From positions 1 to 29,560 of the IMG/VR virus record IMGVR_UViG_3300005732_000251: a DNA stretch of 29,560 nt; one strand, 5' to 3'. Of the stretch, positions 5,137-28,274 are shown one piece after another. The notes under the pieces are model-generated. The model had not been told where the DNA came from. It did not search any database and saw nothing but the letters and a program-made list of their open reading frames with translations. Numbering within the stretch: the first letter of the stretch is position 1; each line of letters opens with the position of its first letter. Source of the DNA: a virus. A program made the position numbers and the translations under genes.

Positions 5137-8100
5137 CTACTTGTAAATTAGTTCATCTTTTGTGTACCTGACTCCGATGCCTACAGCTATCCAGTCAAAT
5201 GTTATGTTGTTCTTTGGTAGTCCGCTAGAATCAAAGAATTGAACTTTGAAACCGTCTTTATCTTTTTCTATTATTTCATAGTAATCACCCTGCGCTAAAT
5301 TCTCTTGGATTGTAATATTGAAAGATTTTAATTCTTTGAAACCTGGAGCAAAGTTCACACGTTCACCTGACAAAGCATTATTTCCATTAATGTTACGAGT
5401 AGGAAAATAAGCCTTAACTACAGCAGAATAAAGCATTGGGCTTAGTGTGTTATCTTTTGAAGATAGCTTTATTCTTAATTGAAATTTTTGTCCTGTATAA
5501 TCACCAACAGTTAGCTTTTTCCATGGGCCACTATTTTTTTCAGAACCATATGCAAGAAATTGAACATCTGCTAATTTTGCCCAATCCTTCAATGTGTCCT
5601 TATCTTCTTTAACTCTTATCTCCACATCTGCACTAACAGAACCTTCAAAATTTGCACCAGCTAATGATTTAACATCTGCTAGTTTTGTCCAGTTTTTGAT
5701 AAGTGACATATATGTAAAGCCCCCAGCGATAACATTCGCCTCAAAACGAACCTTAAAAACATCACCAAGTTCAATATCTTCTGCAAAATAATAATATCCT
5801 TCCTGATAATTAAATTGTGAAAAGTCAGAATTAGAAGAAAGAATTAATCTATCTTTATATGATTGAAGATTTATTTTTTTCCCATCAAATAAAGGAACTC
5901 GATACTCCTTTTCAAGATATACATCTGTAGATTCTGGAATAGTTGTAATAACTCTAGTTTCTTTAGTAGACATATTACCGGCCCAATCTACGGCCTTAAT
6001 CAAATAAGTACCATTTCTTAGAGGTACTGATTTTGAAGTTGTAGCCGCTGGTACATCTGCAATTTTGTCAGAAATTGACCATCTAGCACCAGACGTTCCA
6101 GGGTAATATTTGATTATATATCTATCAAGATCACAATCTTCTACATCATCCCATGTAAGTTCTAAACGCTCTGTTAGAATATTTGCACTAAGATTTTTTA
6201 CATTGGCCGGTGGTATTTCATCTTGTGTAGGAGTGTATGCGTAAGATGATGAACTATTAAGATCAAGCTTTTCACCTGTACCACTAACAGAAACTATAAT
6301 AAATTTATGTTCTACACCCAAATTTTCAGAGTCAGCAAAGTATGTAAATGATGTACTTTTAACAATTCCGGCTAAATTAGTTTGTGAATTGATAGTTACA
6401 TATACTTCATATGATGAAACTAAGCTTGCTGGTGGTGTCCACGATAGATTAATACCGTATCTATATGCATTTTCAGAAGTGGCACAAGAAACAGCATAAG
6501 TTGAATATATGTTTTGAACTGCACCAGGGGCTTTCCCAATGATTGCATCATTAGTGTTTATCACTGGCCTATAATCAGGAATAGGACCTTTATCTGCATT
6601 AAAAATTTCCGGTGCGTATTCCTGGAGCAATACAACAGCGTTAAGATCCGTATCTGTATCAATTGATTTTACAATAAGATCCATTGCAGTTTTACCAGCC
6701 TCACCAAACAGAACTAAGTCATCAATTGAAAAATAAGAAGCATTTTCTACTTCTACTGTATTTATATCAACAACGTCTAAAACATTGTGAATGATTACCC
6801 TACCATTTGATCTATGCCTAGCCTCAATCTGCTTGTTCTGTGCTGCAATATCTACAATGTCATCATCAAGTGTAATAAAGTTACCTTGAATTTTTCTTAC
6901 TCTAAATGGCGAACCTCCGGCTTTCATTGTGTCCATTGCAAGCCTTACAAGATCACCACGAGTACAACTAAGGCTATCAATACCAACCTTGATTTCTATT
7001 GTTTCTTGTCTTAATTCAGCCTGTGCAAGATAATATCTTCCCTGTCTCCATGCTTGAACCATATTTGTACAGGCGAAAACGTCAATTTCTTCGAATAATT
7101 CTGCTGTGCTTTGATCGTAACCATCTGCATAAGCTATAACCTCGTCAACCTGCCAATTCGCCATTGGCTCTATATATCTACACTTAACAGCGTGAGGTTT
7201 ATCAGTATATGACCTACTTGACTTAAAAGAAGTAATATTACGAGTAGTCCAAATCTGTGTCGGAAACTCTTTGGCCTCATCGAGGATAACACCATAAGAA
7301 CCACCAAATATATTTAAAGCTGCTCTACCAGACGAACAAACTTGTTGAACTAACTCCCTTACTGTGGTCTTATAATCAAGTACAAAATTACATTCAAAAC
7401 CAGAAGATAGACCAAACTTTTCAACTGTATTTGATTCACAAAATTCTGCCCATTTTAGTATTGAAGCTAAATGAAGTTGATTCTTATTTATTTTCCTTTG
7501 ATTGAGCTCACCTGTCAGAATGTCGACAAAAACCCAAGCTGGGTTACTAGTTTCTCTTTTTTCCCATTGCTGTAGATCTTCATTGTAAACATCAAGTAAA
7601 GAAATACCCTCAACAGATAAATTATCAACTTGCCCATTTAATTGTTCCGAGGCTTTTATTTTTAGCTCTAAAAAAGTGTGTGGAACTTTTGTTTTTATAG
7701 GTGCAGTATTTGAATAACTTTTTAAACTCCCCCATGTGAAGCTATTATAGTTATTATTTGTCATCCCATTTTTTGTTTCAGATGTTTTAGTAATTCTTAC
7801 TTCATATTGTTTTTGCCCACTTTCCGGATAAATTGTAAGTGAGGCAATGAATCTATTAAGAGTATTATTTACTATGTTTATATCTGTATTAAAAAATCTT
7901 CTAAGCTCTATAACTTCATTATCAAAAGGATTGTAAGCAAGCATTAAGCCATGGTAATCATCACGGTTATTATGTGGAACATTTTCAACTAATTTAGTTC
8001 CTTGAACTTCAATAGGTCTATCTAGGTAGCTATAACCATTGTCGAATTGAGTGATTTTATATACTTGATTTCTAAAAACGACTGTATCACCAATATTTAA

Positions 8101-9267
8101 TTGAACAGATAGTCGAGATATTTTGTAATGATAGTTGTACCAGGCATCTACCCTCAAAGATCCAGAATCTTCATTACCAGAATTACTTTGAATAACTACA
8201 ATATCCCAAAATACTTTACTACCTTCAAAGTCTTTTAAGAAAACTTCGGAACCATAGTAAGGACCATCATCAAGGCTTGTAATAGAAACAATTTCAGAGT
8301 TATAAGATCTACTTGAGTACCTGGAATCAAGATCAAATTTTACATCATTATATTTTTTCCATTGAGAAGATCCAACCTCTCTAAATTCAACTCCAATGTC
8401 TACAGAGTTATTGACATAATTACCACCACTATCAATTCCGGCTAACCCCTGTGGAAAAACTAAATCTACTTGGAAAAAGTCTGTCAATTCAGATGTAGAC
8501 CTAACAGCAGAATCATTAACATCATTATATTCAACTGCTAAATTTTGTACATTAACCGAATTAGTATAGAAATTAAATATATCACCTTGATGTGGTCTTA
8601 CGATTGAATAATCAACATTGTTAAAATAACCTATAAAAGTATCACCTATTCTAATACTTGATTCCTCAATATTTACATCACCAATACCTAAATCATAAAT
8701 TGTAACTAAATATGAATCATCACCAATTAAAAAGCCATAAGGCTGTGCTGCAACTCTAGGATAGATCCTATTTCTACCGTAAGCTTTTACACATGGGCCA
8801 TATCTGTCTACAACATTGCTCTGACCTGTAACGACATCAATTCGTTTTGTATCGTTAGCCCCTGTAGCTCCACTGCCATAAGACGGTACAGGCGGTGGAA
8901 AGATTGCGTTTAAAGCTAAAGATGTACCAATGCTTGCAGCAGCCGTTAAAAGTGCGCCACCAACACCAGGACCTGCATAAGCAGAAACAGCAGCAGTTAC
9001 AGCAATGATTACGGCAGTTTTGAAAAAACCACCAAAATCACCTCCGGCCGGAACTACATGAATTTTAACAAGGGTGTTTTTATTTGGTCTTGTATAGGCC
9101 CAATATTTAGCAAATACTTCATAGTCATTAACTGTGACTTTTAAATATGGGTAAATTTCTTTGGGAATATCTGCTTGTTCTAGGATCTCATATATCGTTA
9201 CACCATCATCAAAAACATGATGTTCAAACTCGCTATCGAAAACTCTCTTTTTTATGAGTGCTTGCAC
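5137..9267 (-). CDS. Tail tip / host specificity protein, gpI-gpJ-like fusion
   Basis: The 1376-residue protein starts at GTG 9267, inside the 3' end of the peptidase gene. Residues 1-75 look like the beta-grasp part of lambda gpI, ending V-K-I-H-V-V-P-A-G-G. A Gly/Ala-rich hydrophobic stretch (about 83-130) then ends in F-P-P-P-V-P, as in gpI-like proteins. From about 145 on it reads as a gpJ/TipJ central tip protein, including D-R-Y-G-P and G-R-N-R-I-Y-P. Two fibronectin type III-like domains begin near 912 and 1019, each with a typical Leu/Ser-W-T/D strand. The C-terminal 260 residues are beta-rich. gpJ-like proteins form the trimeric tip hub that contacts the receptor and starts DNA release. 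No separate gpI gene is present, which supports the fusion reading. Confidence 0.85.
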   Translation of the reverse strand: MQALIKKRVFDSEFEHHVFDDGVTIYEILEQADIPKEIYPYLKVTVNDYEVFAKYWAYTRPNKNTLVKIHVVPAGGDFGGFFKTAVIIAVTAAVSAYAGPGVGGALLTAAASIGTSLALNAIFPPPVPSYGSGATGANDTKRIDVVTGQSNVVDRYGPCVKAYGRNRIYPRVAAQPYGFLIGDDSYLVTIYDLGIGDVNIEESSIRIGDTFIGYFNNVDYSIVRPHQGDIFNFYTNSVNVQNLAVEYNDVNDSAVRSTSELTDFFQVDLVFPQGLAGIDSGGNYVNNSVDIGVEFREVGSSQWKKYNDVKFDLDSRYSSRSYNSEIVSITSLDDGPYYGSEVFLKDFEGSKVFWDIVVIQSNSGNEDSGSLRVDAWYNYHYKISRLSVQLNIGDTVVFRNQVYKITQFDNGYSYLDRPIEVQGTKLVENVPHNNRDDYHGLMLAYNPFDNEVIELRRFFNTDINIVNNTLNRFIASLTIYPESGQKQYEVRITKTSETKNGMTNNNYNSFTWGSLKSYSNTAPIKTKVPHTFLELKIKASEQLNGQVDNLSVEGISLLDVYNEDLQQWEKRETSNPAWVFVDILTGELNQRKINKNQLHLASILKWAEFCESNTVEKFGLSSGFECNFVLDYKTTVRELVQQVCSSGRAALNIFGGSYGVILDEAKEFPTQIWTTRNITSFKSSRSYTDKPHAVKCRYIEPMANWQVDEVIAYADGYDQSTAELFEEIDVFACTNMVQAWRQGRYYLAQAELRQETIEIKVGIDSLSCTRGDLVRLAMDTMKAGGSPFRVRKIQGNFITLDDDIVDIAAQNKQIEARHRSNGRVIIHNVLDVVDINTVEVENASYFSIDDLVLFGEAGKTAMDLIVKSIDTDTDLNAVVLLQEYAPEIFNADKGPIPDYRPVINTNDAIIGKAPGAVQNIYSTYAVSCATSENAYRYGINLSWTPPASLVSSYEVYVTINSQTNLAGIVKSTSFTYFADSENLGVEHKFIIVSVSGTGEKLDLNSSSSYAYTPTQDEIPPANVKNLSANILTERLELTWDDVEDCDLDRYIIKYYPGTSGARWSISDKIADVPAATTSKSVPLRNGTYLIKAVDWAGNMSTKETRVITTIPESTDVYLEKEYRVPLFDGKKINLQSYKDRLILSSNSDFSQFNYQEGYYYFAEDIELGDVFKVRFEANVIAGGFTYMSLIKNWTKLADVKSLAGANFEGSVSADVEIRVKEDKDTLKDWAKLADVQFLAYGSEKNSGPWKKLTVGDYTGQKFQLRIKLSSKDNTLSPMLYSAVVKAYFPTRNINGNNALSGERVNFAPGFKELKSFNITIQENLAQGDYYEIIEKDKDGFKVQFFDSSGLPKNNITFDWIAVGIGVRYTKDELIYK

Positions 9268-9655
9268 CTAAGAACCGCCATACAGAATCAATTTTATTTT
9301 TCCATACAATACTATTTATATTGATAAGTTCTGACTTTTTACTTCCACCCTCATATATATGTAGAACCTGATTGTTTCCGACATAGATACCAACATGAAT
9401 TAAAAAGCCCCCTATCCTATATAGAATTATATCAAGCTCTTTGATGTTATTAATACTTACTAAAGTAAATAATGACTTCTTTTGATTTATTGTCTCTTCA
9501 ATATCTTTATTGTTGAAAACTTTTTCTTCTAGAAAAGTAGGAAATGAATACCCCTTAGATTGTGCATATAAACAACATAACCCCCAGCAATCAACACCGG
9601 AAAATTCACGTCCATTCTTTACATAAGGAATATCAAGAAATTTATAAACTAAAAT
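9233..9655 (-). CDS. NlpC/P60-family tail peptidase (gpK-like), probable ATT start
   Basis: An uninterrupted reading frame of 140 codons fills what looks like a gap between the gpL-like and gpJ-like genes. It encodes R-E-F-S-G-V-D-C-W-G-L (catalytic Cys 23) and later H-V-G-I-Y-V-G (catalytic His 87) followed by V-L-H-I, the NlpC/P60 cysteine peptidase signature. Family members at this spot cleave peptidoglycan or act in tail-tip assembly (lambda gpK). The frame has no ATG, GTG or TTG between its upstream in-frame stop and the catalytic Cys. The ATT at 9655 gives I/M-L-V-Y-K-F-L-D-I-P-Y, matching the usual start of the family, and would overlap the previous gene by 7 bases. The 3' end overlaps the next gene by 35 bases. 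The frame and family are well supported; the start codon is inferred. Confidence 0.8.
   Translation of the reverse strand: MLVYKFLDIPYVKNGREFSGVDCWGLCCLYAQSKGYSFPTFLEEKVFNNKDIEETINQKKSLFTLVSINNIKELDIILYRIGGFLIHVGIYVGNNQVLHIYEGGSKKSELININSIVWKNKIDSVWRFLGASTHKKESFR
9457..9468. repeat. Near-palindrome TTACTAAAGTAA, copy 1
   Basis: This 12-base near-palindrome (5-bp arms, 2-base centre) occurs four times in the window in the same orientation. This copy is inside the NlpC/P60 coding frame, so it may be chance. Confidence 0.4.
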
Positions 9656-10116
9656 AAGCCACCATACTCTAAAGGATTGTAAGTATAACTAGGAATAGAA
9701 ACACTTAAGATATCATCATAAACAAGTGTATAATCAATTCTATCATCATCGTAACTTACACCCCTTGCTTTCATTGTAGGAATTTCAACTTGAACATCTG
9801 TAGGATCAGAAGAAAGAACAAGTTTAAGATTTATTGTAAGTGGTGTAGTAATGGATCTAATTCTTTCGACAAGATCCAAACCTATGTTTGAAAAGCTTAA
9901 TCGTGCCTGCGGTAGAGAATCTTCACCATCTTTGGCCGGAATGACTGAAAAAGGGAAGGCTGTATAAGTATTACCATTCGCTACTAAATCTACGTTATCA
10001 TTATTTAGATATAGAGTTTCCAGGCTTTCATGACTAATTTCAATCAACCAAGTATAAACACCGTCTATATCTTGACTATAAATTTGTGAAATGACAGTTT
10101 GGCTTAACTCTCTCAT
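9649..10116 (-). CDS. Minor tail protein, gpL-position (DUF1833-like)
   Basis: The 155-residue protein resembles the DUF1833 family of phage tail proteins: a leading L-I-E-I-S-H strand, a central N-G-N-T-Y-T-A-F-P-F segment, then P-Q-A-R-L-S-F-S-N-I and a closing beta segment with Y-D-D-D-R. It sits between the gpM-like gene (ATGA overlap) and the NlpC/P60 gene, the slot of lambda gpL, which belongs to the tail tip and in lambda carries an iron-sulphur cluster. No cysteine is present here, so an iron-sulphur cluster of the lambda kind is excluded. Tail-tip role is likely from order and family resemblance. Confidence 0.75.
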   Translation of the reverse strand: MRELSQTVISQIYSQDIDGVYTWLIEISHESLETLYLNNDNVDLVANGNTYTAFPFSVIPAKDGEDSLPQARLSFSNIGLDLVERIRSITTPLTINLKLVLSSDPTDVQVEIPTMKARGVSYDDDRIDYTLVYDDILSVSIPSYTYNPLEYGGLF

Positions 10117-10463
10117 AGCTCAATCAATCTAAATTTAACAGACCAATAAAGTCCTCCAATATGAGAATCTTCATACTGACCATCAAATTTAAATGTTCCC
10201 TCTATTTTAGTTTTTGGATTAGGGAAATAAAAAGAAAGTGAACCATCTTTTAAAGTTTCACTATACCAAAGTTCAAAAATATCTAATTCTTCACGTGTAA
10301 AGATCAATGTAATCTCATGTGAATCAATTCTTTTTGTAGTTCTTCGCCTAGACTGTGGTGGACCACTCAAAAAGCTACTTTTTAAAACATTGTTACCTGG
10401 TCTATGCCTGTAGCCTTGCCTTTGAACATCACTATTAATAGTTTCTGGGTATAATTCTGGCAT
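10113..10463 (-). CDS. Minor tail protein, gpM-like
   Basis: The 116-residue protein has the layout of a widespread phage tail family in this position: D-V-Q-R-Q-G-Y-R near the start, a K-S-S-F-L-S-G-P-P segment with basic residues R-R-R-T-T-K-R, a central helix (E-E-L-D-I-F-E-L-W-Y), and closing strands Y-W-S-V-K-F-R. It starts in a TAATG overlap with the tape measure stop and ends in an ATGA overlap with the next gene, so the three are translationally coupled. By order it matches lambda gpM, an early tail-tip component assembled after gpH. The family is recognised by pattern only. Confidence 0.7.
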   Translation of the reverse strand: MPELYPETINSDVQRQGYRHRPGNNVLKSSFLSGPPQSRRRTTKRIDSHEITLIFTREELDIFELWYSETLKDGSLSFYFPNPKTKIEGTFKFDGQYEDSHIGGLYWSVKFRLIEL

Positions 10464-12517
10464 TACGCACTTCCTACTCTATTTACACCAAATGAGTTAT
10501 TCATCTCTTTATCAAAAGCACCTGTGGAAATTGAGTTTTTAACAGTTTTGTTAATTAAAACTTCAATAACCCTACTATCGCCACTTTGACTCTCTCTAGT
10601 TTCAATTTCTACACCTGCGTTATTAATAACATTTACCTGTACGTTAGAACCGCCTCCAACTGACTTTACCCCTAAAGAACCACCAATTCTAGTTAAAGGC
10701 ATGATAGCCTCTGGACCAGCTTCGCCCATTAAGCCCGTTTTGTTACCAGGCATAGGGAAGAAAGTAGGTGTATTAACAACAGAGTTAGAAAATGCGCCAC
10801 CTTTAGCAAATGGTATAACATTACCAGAACTAAAAGAATTACCTGTAGCATGAGCTGAAATACTTCCCCAACCGCCACCGCTTGAATTAGCACCAGAAAT
10901 AGAGCTAGATAATGCTCCGGCCAAAGGTGCAGTTATCGTTTGTTGAATTGTCATTCTTAGAAGATCTGACATTATAGAATCTACCAATGACTTAAACTGA
11001 ATCTTTCCAGTTTTTACAAAGTCTATTAATGTATCTTCCATTTTCTCAAAACTGTTAGTAATCGCATTTGAAATACTTTTTGATAGATTGCTTACAGATT
11101 TCACATAACTTTTCAAACCATCTTCCAAGCCATTATTTACTTTGTCTGTAAGGGAAAATAAATCTGAATATTCAACGTTAATTTTTCGTAATTTTTCTGA
11201 ATAATCTTCTAGTGTAACTTTCCCCTGGTGCCACTTTCGATTAAGAGCTTCAACTGCATCTGCCTTTTCTTTTTCTCTTGTTAATGGATCAACACCTTTA
11301 AAACCACCAGGACTAGAAGTTTTCTTAGGCCTATTTTCAAGTGTATAATATTTCTTCTTTTCAAGTTGGATATCTGCTAAACTTTGTTTAGCAATTTTCA
11401 ACTTTTTTATTTCTTCTTCTAATACTCCTGCTGGGAAAAGCTTTTTCCCTATCCAACTAGAAAATGCCTTAACACCAAGTTCACGCATCTCTACATTAAA
11501 CTCTGCCATTTTTTCTCTAACATAAAGCATACCTTCATAAGTGTACTTCTTAATAGAGTCCCAATTAGATATAACTGTCACCCCTAATGTTGTAATACCA
11601 ACAATTAAAAGCCCCCATGGGTTCTTTGCAGTTGCTAACTGTAATTCCTTCATTGCAGTTATAAGTTTAGGGATAGAAGCTATAGCAAGTCCAAGAATTG
11701 CACCTGCGAAAACTTCAACATTCTCTGCCATAAAGAGTATGCCTTTACCAACTAAAGTAAAAACACCTGTTTTCTTTTCAAGTTTATCAATAAATTCAGC
11801 TACAAATGATTTTCCTACATTGGTAATTTGTTCAATTGTAAGAGGGATATCTTTCGCCTGTTTTCTAAGATCTTCCAAGTTATTAACAAGTGAATTAACA
11901 ATGACCTCACCTGTAATTCTACCTTGTGCGGCAAGTTCTTTAAGTTGTCCACGGCTAACACCAAGCTCTTTTGCGAAAAAATCAAGTAAAACACTTGCAT
12001 TTTCGGCAACAGATTTAAATTCATCACCAGCAAGCCTTCCACTTGCCAAACCTTGCGTAAGTTGCAGAAGTGCAGAATCTGCTTGTTGTGCGTTTACACC
12101 AAAAACCCTAAAGGCTAATGAAGCAGACTCAAATACATCTAAAGTCGTTTGACTACTGTAAGTGGTATCTTTAAGAGCAGATGATATTTTAGTATATCCA
12201 TCTACCATCGTGTTTAATCCGAGGCCATTTGCCCTTTGAATCTCAAATAACTTCTTTTGTGTTAATGCTGCATTTTCACCTTCTTTCTTGAAAGTGTTTA
12301 TACGTGTAGAAAGTTGTTTCATTTGATCAGACCATGAACCAACTGCTCTTAAGGCTTGAAATGAAAATACAGCCGCCATAGTTCCCTGAAAGCGGCTTAG
12401 ATATTTATTTGATTGATTTACTGACCGATTAACACTTTTAAACTGGGTATCAAACCTTTTTAAAATCTGACTTGCTTGCTTTGCATTAACCGTTATTTGT
12501 ATTACTTTCTTTGCCAT
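10463..12517 (-). CDS. Tape measure protein
   Basis: The 684-residue protein has a tape-measure N-terminus with a TMP_3-like domain (about 45-230: A-L-R-A-V-G, W-S-D-Q-M-K-Q-L, G-L-A-S-G-R-L-A-G-D-E-F-K-S-V and the conserved E-N-A-S-V-L-L-D-F-F). Hydrophobic segments follow at about 250-320, then a helical rod. The Gly/Ser-rich C-terminal part (from about 540) includes P-T-F-F-P-M-P-G-N-K-T-G-L-M-G-E-A-G-P-E-A-I, typical of lambda gpH relatives. It sets tail length and helps DNA pass the envelope. At the usual 0.15 nm per residue a tail near 100 nm is expected. Its start overlaps the end of the frameshifted chaperone frame by 32 bases, as in lambda-like phages. Confidence 0.92.
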   Translation of the reverse strand: MAKKVIQITVNAKQASQILKRFDTQFKSVNRSVNQSNKYLSRFQGTMAAVFSFQALRAVGSWSDQMKQLSTRINTFKKEGENAALTQKKLFEIQRANGLGLNTMVDGYTKISSALKDTTYSSQTTLDVFESASLAFRVFGVNAQQADSALLQLTQGLASGRLAGDEFKSVAENASVLLDFFAKELGVSRGQLKELAAQGRITGEVIVNSLVNNLEDLRKQAKDIPLTIEQITNVGKSFVAEFIDKLEKKTGVFTLVGKGILFMAENVEVFAGAILGLAIASIPKLITAMKELQLATAKNPWGLLIVGITTLGVTVISNWDSIKKYTYEGMLYVREKMAEFNVEMRELGVKAFSSWIGKKLFPAGVLEEEIKKLKIAKQSLADIQLEKKKYYTLENRPKKTSSPGGFKGVDPLTREKEKADAVEALNRKWHQGKVTLEDYSEKLRKINVEYSDLFSLTDKVNNGLEDGLKSYVKSVSNLSKSISNAITNSFEKMEDTLIDFVKTGKIQFKSLVDSIMSDLLRMTIQQTITAPLAGALSSSISGANSSGGGWGSISAHATGNSFSSGNVIPFAKGGAFSNSVVNTPTFFPMPGNKTGLMGEAGPEAIMPLTRIGGSLGVKSVGGGSNVQVNVINNAGVEIETRESQSGDSRVIEVLINKTVKNSISTGAFDKEMNNSFGVNRVGSA

Positions 12518-13234
12518 TTGAGCTTCTTTGTTTTTCTAATTCATTAAGATAATCTAAATACATATTATCAATCATTCTCATTAAATAGTTTAACATCGAA
12601 AAATCAATATCATAAATTTGGCAATAAAAATAAATCTTATCAAAAGGGATTGGGCCAATACTCATTCCAATATTTCGCATAGATGATAAATCAGAGAAAA
12701 TATCTATGAATATCTTTACATCTTCAACATCTGGCATTTCATCTTCTTTACGAAGTTTTCCAGTTTCTAAAAGAAATTCATAAAACTCATAATTACCATC
12801 AAGCTTATTTTCCCACTCGATGTATTTAATTACTTTTTTGCGATATCCTCACAATCTGCAACTAGGAAATTCTCTAAGTTTTCAGCTTCTTTAACTAAAT
12901 CTAGGTAAAGGTCAGGCAGATCTAGTAATAACTTTTTTGCATTTTCAAGCGAAAACTCTAAAGGGTTTTCATCTCTATCTTTTACATTTTTCCAATCAAC
13001 TAAAACTGTTCCACAAAATGCACCAACTTGAATTTCAAGTGCTGTCTCTGGTGAGAGATCGCCATTTTTACTCTGTCTAGCAAATGGTTTAGAAAGATTT
13101 TCAAACTTAACATAATATGCCTTATTTGAAGGTCCTAATCTTCTAAGCTTGAACTCAACACCATCACCAAAAGGAATAAAACAACCGTCTTTTTCCTTAC
13201 TTTTGTCTGATTCATATTTTTTGTATAAACTCAT
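12486..13234 (-). CDS. Tail assembly chaperone, long form by -1 frameshift (gpGT-like)
   Basis: Ribosomes that slip back one base at A AAA AAG (12839-12833) leave the short-form frame before its stop and continue as G-T-A, A-T-T, A-A-A and so on to the stop at 12486. The fusion has about 249 residues: 134 of the short form plus 115. The continuation is an open frame of 115 codons reading V-I-K-Y-I-E-W-E-N-K-L and ending just inside the tape measure gene. In lambda the equivalent gpG and gpGT coat the tape measure protein, and the T part recruits tail tube subunits. An ATG at 12737 inside the continuation could mislead gene callers into a separate 83-residue gene. Site, frame and gene order all agree. 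Confidence 0.85.
12830..13234 (-). CDS. Tail assembly chaperone, short form (gpG-like)
   Basis: This 134-residue protein begins with a charged segment, then F-K-L-R-R-L-G-P-S-N-K-A-Y, and ends in a helical acidic tail. The layout is that of phage tail assembly chaperones encoded between the tail tube and tape measure genes. The stop TAA directly follows the slippery heptamer, so most ribosomes end here and a minority make the long form. Short and long forms together are needed in a fixed ratio to build the tail shaft around the tape measure. It starts at ATG 13234, 21 bases after the tail tube stop, with a good AGGAGAG ribosome binding site. Confidence 0.85.
   Translation of the reverse strand: MSLYKKYESDKSKEKDGCFIPFGDGVEFKLRRLGPSNKAYYVKFENLSKPFARQSKNGDLSPETALEIQVGAFCGTVLVDWKNVKDRDENPLEFSLENAKKLLLDLPDLYLDLVKEAENLENFLVADCEDIAKK
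12833..12839 (-). promoter_or_regulatory. Programmed -1 ribosomal frameshift site A AAA AAG
   Basis: The heptamer is read GCA AAA AAG TAA in the short-form frame, so it matches X XXY YYZ exactly and lies directly before the stop. GAGG sits seven bases upstream on the mRNA and could act as an internal Shine-Dalgarno stimulator of the dnaX kind. No strong downstream stem or pseudoknot was obvious by eye. Confidence 0.85.
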
Positions 13235-22280: not shown

Positions 22281-23102
22281 CTAACTAAATCTTCCCTTAC
22301 TATCTCTAACTTGATCAACCCTAGCCGTTTTCGAAGAATGACAAGCATTGCAAAGTGTAACCAGATTAGATTCTTGATAAAACAACTTATCATTTCCCTT
22401 ATGTGCTATTCTGTGATCAACATGTAGGTTCTTATCCTCACCACAATTATCACAAAAAGGATACTTGCTTAGATGTAGAGCTCTTAACTTCCTCCATGAT
22501 TCACGAGCATACATAGGCTTAAACTTACCAGCATCTTGAACGCTCTTTGGCATATGTCTTTTACCTTTAGACCTTAAATGTTGTGGCTTGTGTACTTTCA
22601 TATCATTCCAATTGTTAATGTAATTAATCATGTCATCAAGATTGGCTTTGTATTTATTTCTAATGGTATCAATAAGAATAGAATCAACTTCTTCAATCGG
22701 TACAATGAAGAGATCCACATTGTTTTCACCAGTTCTTTTCATTGGCAGAAAGTCAAAGAAATATGAGTCATTAACACCAAGCAATTCAGCTACACAATCT
22801 TCAATTACTTTTATCCTATTACTTGTATCAAGTTGCTTAACTGCTTCTTTTGCCTTGATTGTTTTATTTAGAACTAAACTTAAGTCAAATTTAAATACCC
22901 AAAATAGAAAGTATGGCCTTCTATTTCCTACTTGCTCTAAGTAATTCAAAGCACTTTTAATAGAAGCTTGATTAAGATAGCACCATTGTTCAAAACTATT
23001 TTCATATCGAGCATATGCTGCGCTTTTCTTTCTACTTTTTCCTACGTTTGAATAAGCTACATTAACACTCACAGGCATTGGTATATTTTTAAATGTGATC
23101 AT
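22281..23102 (-). CDS. RusA-like resolvase domain fused to HNH endonuclease
   Basis: This 273-residue protein appears to join two nucleases. Residues 1-140 resemble RusA Holliday-junction resolvases: I-P-M-P-V-S-V-N-V-A-Y near the start, then L-D-T-S-N-R-I-K-V-I-E-D-C-V-A-E-L-L-G (Asp 92, Asn 95, Asp 102) and N-D-S-Y-F (Asp 112), the acidic metal-binding pattern. After a linker (about 140-190), residues 195-273 are an HNH nuclease: C217-x2-C220, L-H-V-D-H (228-230), N246 and C251-N-A-C254-H255. HNH proteins beside terminase often take part in cleavage during packaging, and RusA resolves branched replication DNA before packaging. The combination in one gene fits a debranching and cutting enzyme. 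ATGA overlap with the upstream gene. Confidence 0.85.
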   Translation of the reverse strand: MITFKNIPMPVSVNVAYSNVGKSRKKSAAYARYENSFEQWCYLNQASIKSALNYLEQVGNRRPYFLFWVFKFDLSLVLNKTIKAKEAVKQLDTSNRIKVIEDCVAELLGVNDSYFFDFLPMKRTGENNVDLFIVPIEEVDSILIDTIRNKYKANLDDMINYINNWNDMKVHKPQHLRSKGKRHMPKSVQDAGKFKPMYARESWRKLRALHLSKYPFCDNCGEDKNLHVDHRIAHKGNDKLFYQESNLVTLCNACHSSKTARVDQVRDSKGRFS

Positions 23103-27639: not shown

Positions 27640-27720
27640 CTATAAATAATGTGCTGCTATAAATAGCCCAATGATAAAAAAGAAAATTAGGAATATAACA
27701 GCACTTACAAATTCAGACAT
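27640..27720 (-). CDS. Very small membrane peptide (26 residues) coupled to endolysin
   Basis: The ATG at 27720 shares one base with the endolysin stop (TAATG), so it is read by reinitiating ribosomes. The peptide is M-S-E-F followed by a long hydrophobic helix (F-L-I-F-F-F-I-I-G-L-F-I) and a polar end H-Y-L. Direct coupling to the endolysin gene makes a lysis role attractive, but 26 residues is shorter than known holins. Confidence 0.6.
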   Translation of the reverse strand: MSEFVSAVIFLIFFFIIGLFIAAHYL

Positions 27721-28274
27721 TAAATAGCTCTATAAACTCTTACACGTTTATCAATCCAACCTAGAAAGAAATCTTTATTGGTTTTAGTCTTTTCGCATAG
27801 AGTGTTATATCTCTCACATTGAAGGCCATTCATATTGATTACAATTACACGTTTTTCAATATCTCTTTTTTGAAGTGCCTTTAATCTACTGATTGTCTTA
27901 GGCCCTACCATACCGTCACGTTTAAGCTCTTTATGCCTTCTGGACATATTATTAAGAGTTCTTTGTAAGAAAAATTGAGGTGTTCTGACTCCATAATTAA
28001 CGGCTTGTTCAAAAACCTCTAATGCCAATTCCTCATTAATTGATTCAATCAAGTGTGCCTTTGATTTTTTCCAATAATCGACATGATAAATTTCATGGGC
28101 CAGGCCAATTGGAAAATCTTTCATTTTTCCTTTGTAACCCCATCTTCTAGCTGTTTTCTCGGTAATCCCATACTTTGTCTTACCCCCTTTATCGCTAGGG
28201 TGATCTGAATACTCTCCCTCGATGTGTAAAACTTCTTTCAATGCTCTTAAAAATACTGGGCTTAAATTACTCAT
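27720..28274 (-). CDS. Endolysin, glycoside hydrolase family 108 type
   Basis: The 184-residue protein matches GH108 muramidases: the N-terminal L-H-I-E-G-E-Y with probable catalytic Glu 19, then D-K-G-G-K-T-K-Y-G-I-T, V-D-Y-W-K-K, and a C-terminal peptidoglycan-binding half with D-G-M-V-G-P-K-T-I. It cleaves the cell-wall glycan at the end of infection. There is no signal peptide, so a holin would be needed for release. AGGAGAG precedes ATG 28274. Unusually the gene is beside replication genes, far from the late genes at the left end. Confidence 0.9.
   Translation of the reverse strand: MSNLSPVFLRALKEVLHIEGEYSDHPSDKGGKTKYGITEKTARRWGYKGKMKDFPIGLAHEIYHVDYWKKSKAHLIESINEELALEVFEQAVNYGVRTPQFFLQRTLNNMSRRHKELKRDGMVGPKTISRLKALQKRDIEKRVIVINMNGLQCERYNTLCEKTKTNKDFFLGWIDKRVRVYRAI

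Follow-up and report, generated by a model that had tools for sequence, protein, structure and literature searches.

In phage lambda, gpK is encoded between L and the I/J region and carries an NlpC/P60 peptidase domain together with an additional JAB domain. A K subtype with the NlpC domain only is already known (PMC1779556). Rhizobium phage RHph_Y3_1 (QIG68381.1) and similar prophages (L002, L075, L083 and L092) encode such an NlpC-only K and a separate J that overlaps K, and their K starts at the ATG of a TGATG overlap. Start codons outside ATG, GTG and TTG are known from infC of E. coli (ATT) and sigR of Streptomyces (GTC), both of which are repressed by IF3 (PMC5472188). The activity of an ATT start in E. 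coli reporters is given as ~0.3% of that of ATG in PMC10666635, citing Hecht 2017, and E. coli ribosomes are known to re-initiate close to a stop codon (PMC2268962). Switches to AUU between close genomes have been counted at 1 of 61,358 ancestral AUG starts and 1 of 5,080 ancestral GUG starts (PMC5622118). The phage K gene described here would share with infC and sigR a start outside ATG, GTG and TTG. However, the infC and sigR starts are experimentally demonstrated, IF3-regulated and of known purpose, whereas the K start is a candidate read from the sequence.

The stretch of DNA analysed (the window) comprises 29,560 bases of an IMG/VR virus record, a single uncultivated metagenome assembly. 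It has a G+C content of 34% and carries all of its major genes on the minus strand, to which all coordinates below refer: terminase, portal, HK97-type capsid and protease, tail tube, tail chaperones, tape measure, M, L, K, J and a large downstream tail gene. The large terminase is nearest to those of HK97-like phages (~40%), and the tail module to those of Rhizobium, Rhodobacter-type and other phages (~30%). Searches with K, J, tape measure, major capsid, tail tube, terminase and junction DNA found no near relative of the virus in the collections searched. Major genes other than K are all intact with standard starts. An altered genetic code was ruled out, as TAA, TAG and TGA each terminate family-length genes in the window. 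Elsewhere in the window, an HNH endonuclease (22281-23102) adjoins the small terminase subunit, a common arrangement in HK97-like phages, a PAPS reductase-like protein (PF01507; 24099-24908) is encoded near the early phage genes, and a glycosyl hydrolase 108 endolysin with a peptidoglycan-binding domain is encoded at 27720-28274.

The tail module has the gene order of lambda gpK-type loci, TMP-M-L-K-(I)J. The tape measure gene (10463-12517; PF20155, PF09718, phrog_339) is followed by an M-like gene (10113-10463; phrog_384, E 1.7e-16), assigned also by its position between TMP and L, and by an L-like minor tail protein of the DUF1833 family (9649-10116; PF08875, E 9.9e-13; phrog_396, E 1.6e-21). 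The gene for a J-like tip protein (5137-9267; phrog_31, E 1.8e-85; NCBIfam TipJ-related) starts at a GTG of its own and shares 35 bases with the end of K. The Rhizobium phage group has the same gene order as the window and likewise has separate, overlapping K and J genes; most AT-rich relatives (L013-L091) instead carry an in-frame K-J fusion, with 67 of 74 frames longer than 170 aa. Upstream, at 12486-13234, lies a tail assembly chaperone pair whose frames overlap by 19 bases (upstream frame phrog_8233/phrog_313, downstream frame Phage_TAC_18/phrog_3817). It has a canonical -1 slippery site, A AAA AAG, near 12833-12839, just 5' of the upstream stop, and is an ordinary lambda G/GT-type frameshift.

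In the K slot, a frame open from stop to stop at 9233-9688 (151 codons) matches Pfam NLPC_P60 (PF00877) with an E value of 8.9e-12 and 45.4 bits, where the curated cut-off is 23, and the 'minor tail protein' family PHROG 329 with an E value of 1.9e-15. Its closest solved-structure relative by sequence profile is the murein endopeptidase MepS (Spr; 2k1g, E 1.1e-16), which is a cellular lipoprotein, whereas K is a tail protein. Compared with 10 relatives, K keeps every invariant family column, including the catalytic Cys followed by His and a third polar residue (D-C22, H86, H98). Unlike lambda gpK, the 140-aa frame consists of the NlpC/P60 domain only. On this sequence evidence, K is a genuine NlpC/P60 tail protein and predicted peptidase, not a chance frame, as a sequence-only reading of the locus had proposed from the K slot and the intact Cys and His blocks.

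That reading had also placed the start of K at an ATT at 9655, after finding no standard start before the catalytic Cys. Its coordinates were right: read from ATT, the gene (9233-9655) has 140 sense codons, ends in TAG at 9233 and overlaps L by 7 bases, the L stop (TAG) being at 9651-9649 within the K start region. The record reads TTTTAGTTTATAAA at this start region, and TTATTTTAGTTTATAAA within 9600-9720. The absence of ATG, GTG and TTG proved to extend over the whole 9233-9688 frame, both 5' and 3' of the catalytic Cys, and so includes the family N-terminus. As had been anticipated, K is invisible to gene callers limited to these three codons, and an open reading frame list built on them holds nothing in the K frame. 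At this genome's codon frequencies, the chance of finding none of the three in 139 codons is ~2%, and 6.5% of test windows in its other genes contain none. The chaperone gene at 12830-13234 likewise has 133 codons past its start that lack them, with a chance of a few per cent. The absence by itself is thus only mildly unusual, and the comparison with relatives is what matters.

We gathered relatives of K via a K alignment (5-sequence subset), which gave 142 scorable sequences, 115 of them distinct, and start positions were scored by rule rather than curated per locus. Every one of the 142 has an ATG, GTG or TTG upstream of the Cys, leaving the window as the sole exception; none has a non-canonical K start, and none is a close relative. 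Among the 115 distinct sequences, an ATG lies 17-32 codons upstream of the DCWG motif's Asp in 104, GTG or TTG takes its place in 10, and one has other starts only, outside the family position. The modal ATG distance is 21 codons (49 of the 104 with ATG). The proposed check, whether relatives have an ATG at the same place, which was to count as a sign of sequencing error here, found a standard start there in all of them. However, because they are at most ~35% identical over the main alignments, they do not distinguish a real start switch from a base error.

Two codons are candidates for the start of K. The ATT (9653-9655) lies 21 codons upstream of the DCWG Asp, the modal distance in the family, and is preceded by GGUGG (9659-9663), an extended Shine-Dalgarno match that pairs with UCACC of the usual 16S tail. 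The aligned spacing of GGUGG is 6 to ATT, 9 to TTA and 12 to a GTT at 9647-9649. Spacings of 6-8 are found in most of the virus' own genes with good matches and at the K starts of relatives, and AGGA, too, lies at spacing 6 in the K genes of relatives. At ~3% of coding positions there is a match of this quality at spacing 5-8, and ATT, ATA, ATC or CTG make up ~7% of codons, so the coincidence of GGUGG and ATT is modest but real. The Shine-Dalgarno matches were scored with a partly approximate stacking table; RNAduplex gives -6.7 for the same region. GGUGG exists because a conserved Pro of L is Gly in the window: L proteins of the family end in PGLF, whereas the window's L ends in YGGLF, and the residue in question is Pro in 93 of 98 distinct relatives and Gly in the window alone. 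The motif could be a mere by-product of these Gly codons. RNA structure over the K start is weaker than in shuffled sequences (z ~ +1). The GTT directly abuts the L stop as TAGTT, where the architecturally closest relatives have TGATG or TAATG. Its alignment with the ATG of these relatives, the Rhizobium phage group (~28-33% identity), is also free of gaps. The proposed ATT start thus gained support from its distance and Shine-Dalgarno spacing and lost some to the homologous position of GTT.

We tentatively favour, at somewhat under an even chance, real non-canonical initiation or re-initiation of K, most likely at ATT. K would then be a real, constrained tail-tip gene translated from a non-canonical codon. 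Ribosomes finishing L at its TAG, or 30S subunits bound at GGUGG, would initiate with fMet on the AUU at 9655 and make a family-length protein at a low rate; the GUU at 9649, touching the L stop, would be the second-choice start. Since ribosomes ending L terminate on the spot, re-initiation would be available to them. Low output may be tolerable if the phage needs little of the enzyme, and since J is started independently in the window: a K-J fusion would not tolerate a weak start, whereas with a separate GTG for J a weak K start would cost only K. A simple history would run from TAATG or TGATG through TAGTG to TAGTT, with AUU then taking over, unless the last step is an assembly error. Counting against an AUU start are the lack of a non-standard start in any relative, the rarity of such switches, the homology of GTT and the rarity of 7-base L/K overlaps, of which there is 1 among 98 relatives. 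We think it unlikely that AUU has been fixed for a tail-tip peptidase, with the Pro-to-Gly change in L as a compensating step that builds the Shine-Dalgarno sequence and with a low output dependent on L translation and host IF3 level. Overall, a special start for K is plausible, has precedents elsewhere and small independent support, and depends on a single base of one uncultivated sequence. Translation of K, the codon used and its efficiency are what we infer here.

The main alternative, which we regard as a substantial possibility, is that K has an ordinary start in the phage, or had one in its immediate ancestor, most probably a GTG within TAGTG, and that GTT reflects either one wrong base from sequencing or assembly or a defective copy in the population. 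TAGTT and TAGTG differ by one base, at 9647, and a GTG there would restore the -1 overlap of one base (TAATG or TGATG) that is the commonest L/K junction, found in 57 of the 98 distinct relatives (42 of the 47 that are AT-rich), ahead of ATGA in 25 of 98. The gap-free alignment of GTT with the closest group's ATG and the standard starts of all scored relatives also favour this explanation. By our own estimate of the error rate, set against the published switch rates (PMC5622118), a metagenome base error is a priori about as likely as an AUU switch. However, the intact major genes elsewhere in the window give no sign of poor assembly, and no well-spaced Shine-Dalgarno sequence would serve a GTG at 9649, which would lie 12 from GGUGG. 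The version of this explanation in which an ATG at 9655 was misread as ATT is disfavoured, as the last residue of L would then be Cys, which is seen in none of the 98 relatives.

Initiation or re-initiation at the GTT itself, the homologous position, instead of ATT appears improbable. Its placement relative to the L stop and to the ATG of the closest relatives speaks for it, as does the GTC start of sigR, a working GUN codon other than GUG (PMC5472188), but the same Shine-Dalgarno spacing of 12 stands against it.

Production of K only as a fusion with L, which would have overturned the idea of a separate start, is very unlikely. The fusion could arise by -1 frameshifting, as K is read in the -1 frame relative to L and a 40-base overlap is open in the two frames, or by a +1 shift from an out-of-frame ATG at 9665, which opens an ATG-GTG mini-frame at 9665-9642. 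However, the overlap contains no X XXY YYZ heptamer, whereas an identical scan recovers A AAA AAG in the chaperone pair; it has no unusual RNA structure (z ~ +1), and relatives encode L and K separately, each with its own start.

Least likely of all is that K was recently killed and the phage lives without it or obtains its function elsewhere: the standard start is missing and, for some prophages, degeneration of NlpC-only K genes has been proposed (PMC1779556), but the frame is fully open, its invariant residues are all kept, and its divergence and codon usage are like those of other genes. K identity to relatives is 0.29-0.31, against 0.32-0.33 in other pairs, about half a standard deviation lower than expected from L. 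An anomaly in the codon score of K vanished once scoring was limited to synonymous choice, where K falls inside the range spanned by the window's other genes. Because this usage is ordinary and divergence tracks that of L, a long-standing pseudogene is not supported; both observations would be compatible with a fresh mutation or a base error.

If the GTT is a base error, the locus is a reminder that a translation mechanism should be proposed for a startless but conserved frame in a single metagenome contig only once reads back the sequence. If the non-canonical start is real, K would be a rare phage structural or assembly gene started outside ATG, GTG and TTG, and gene callers would be leaving holes in phage tail modules. 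It would also hint that the amount of a tail enzyme can be governed by a weak start.
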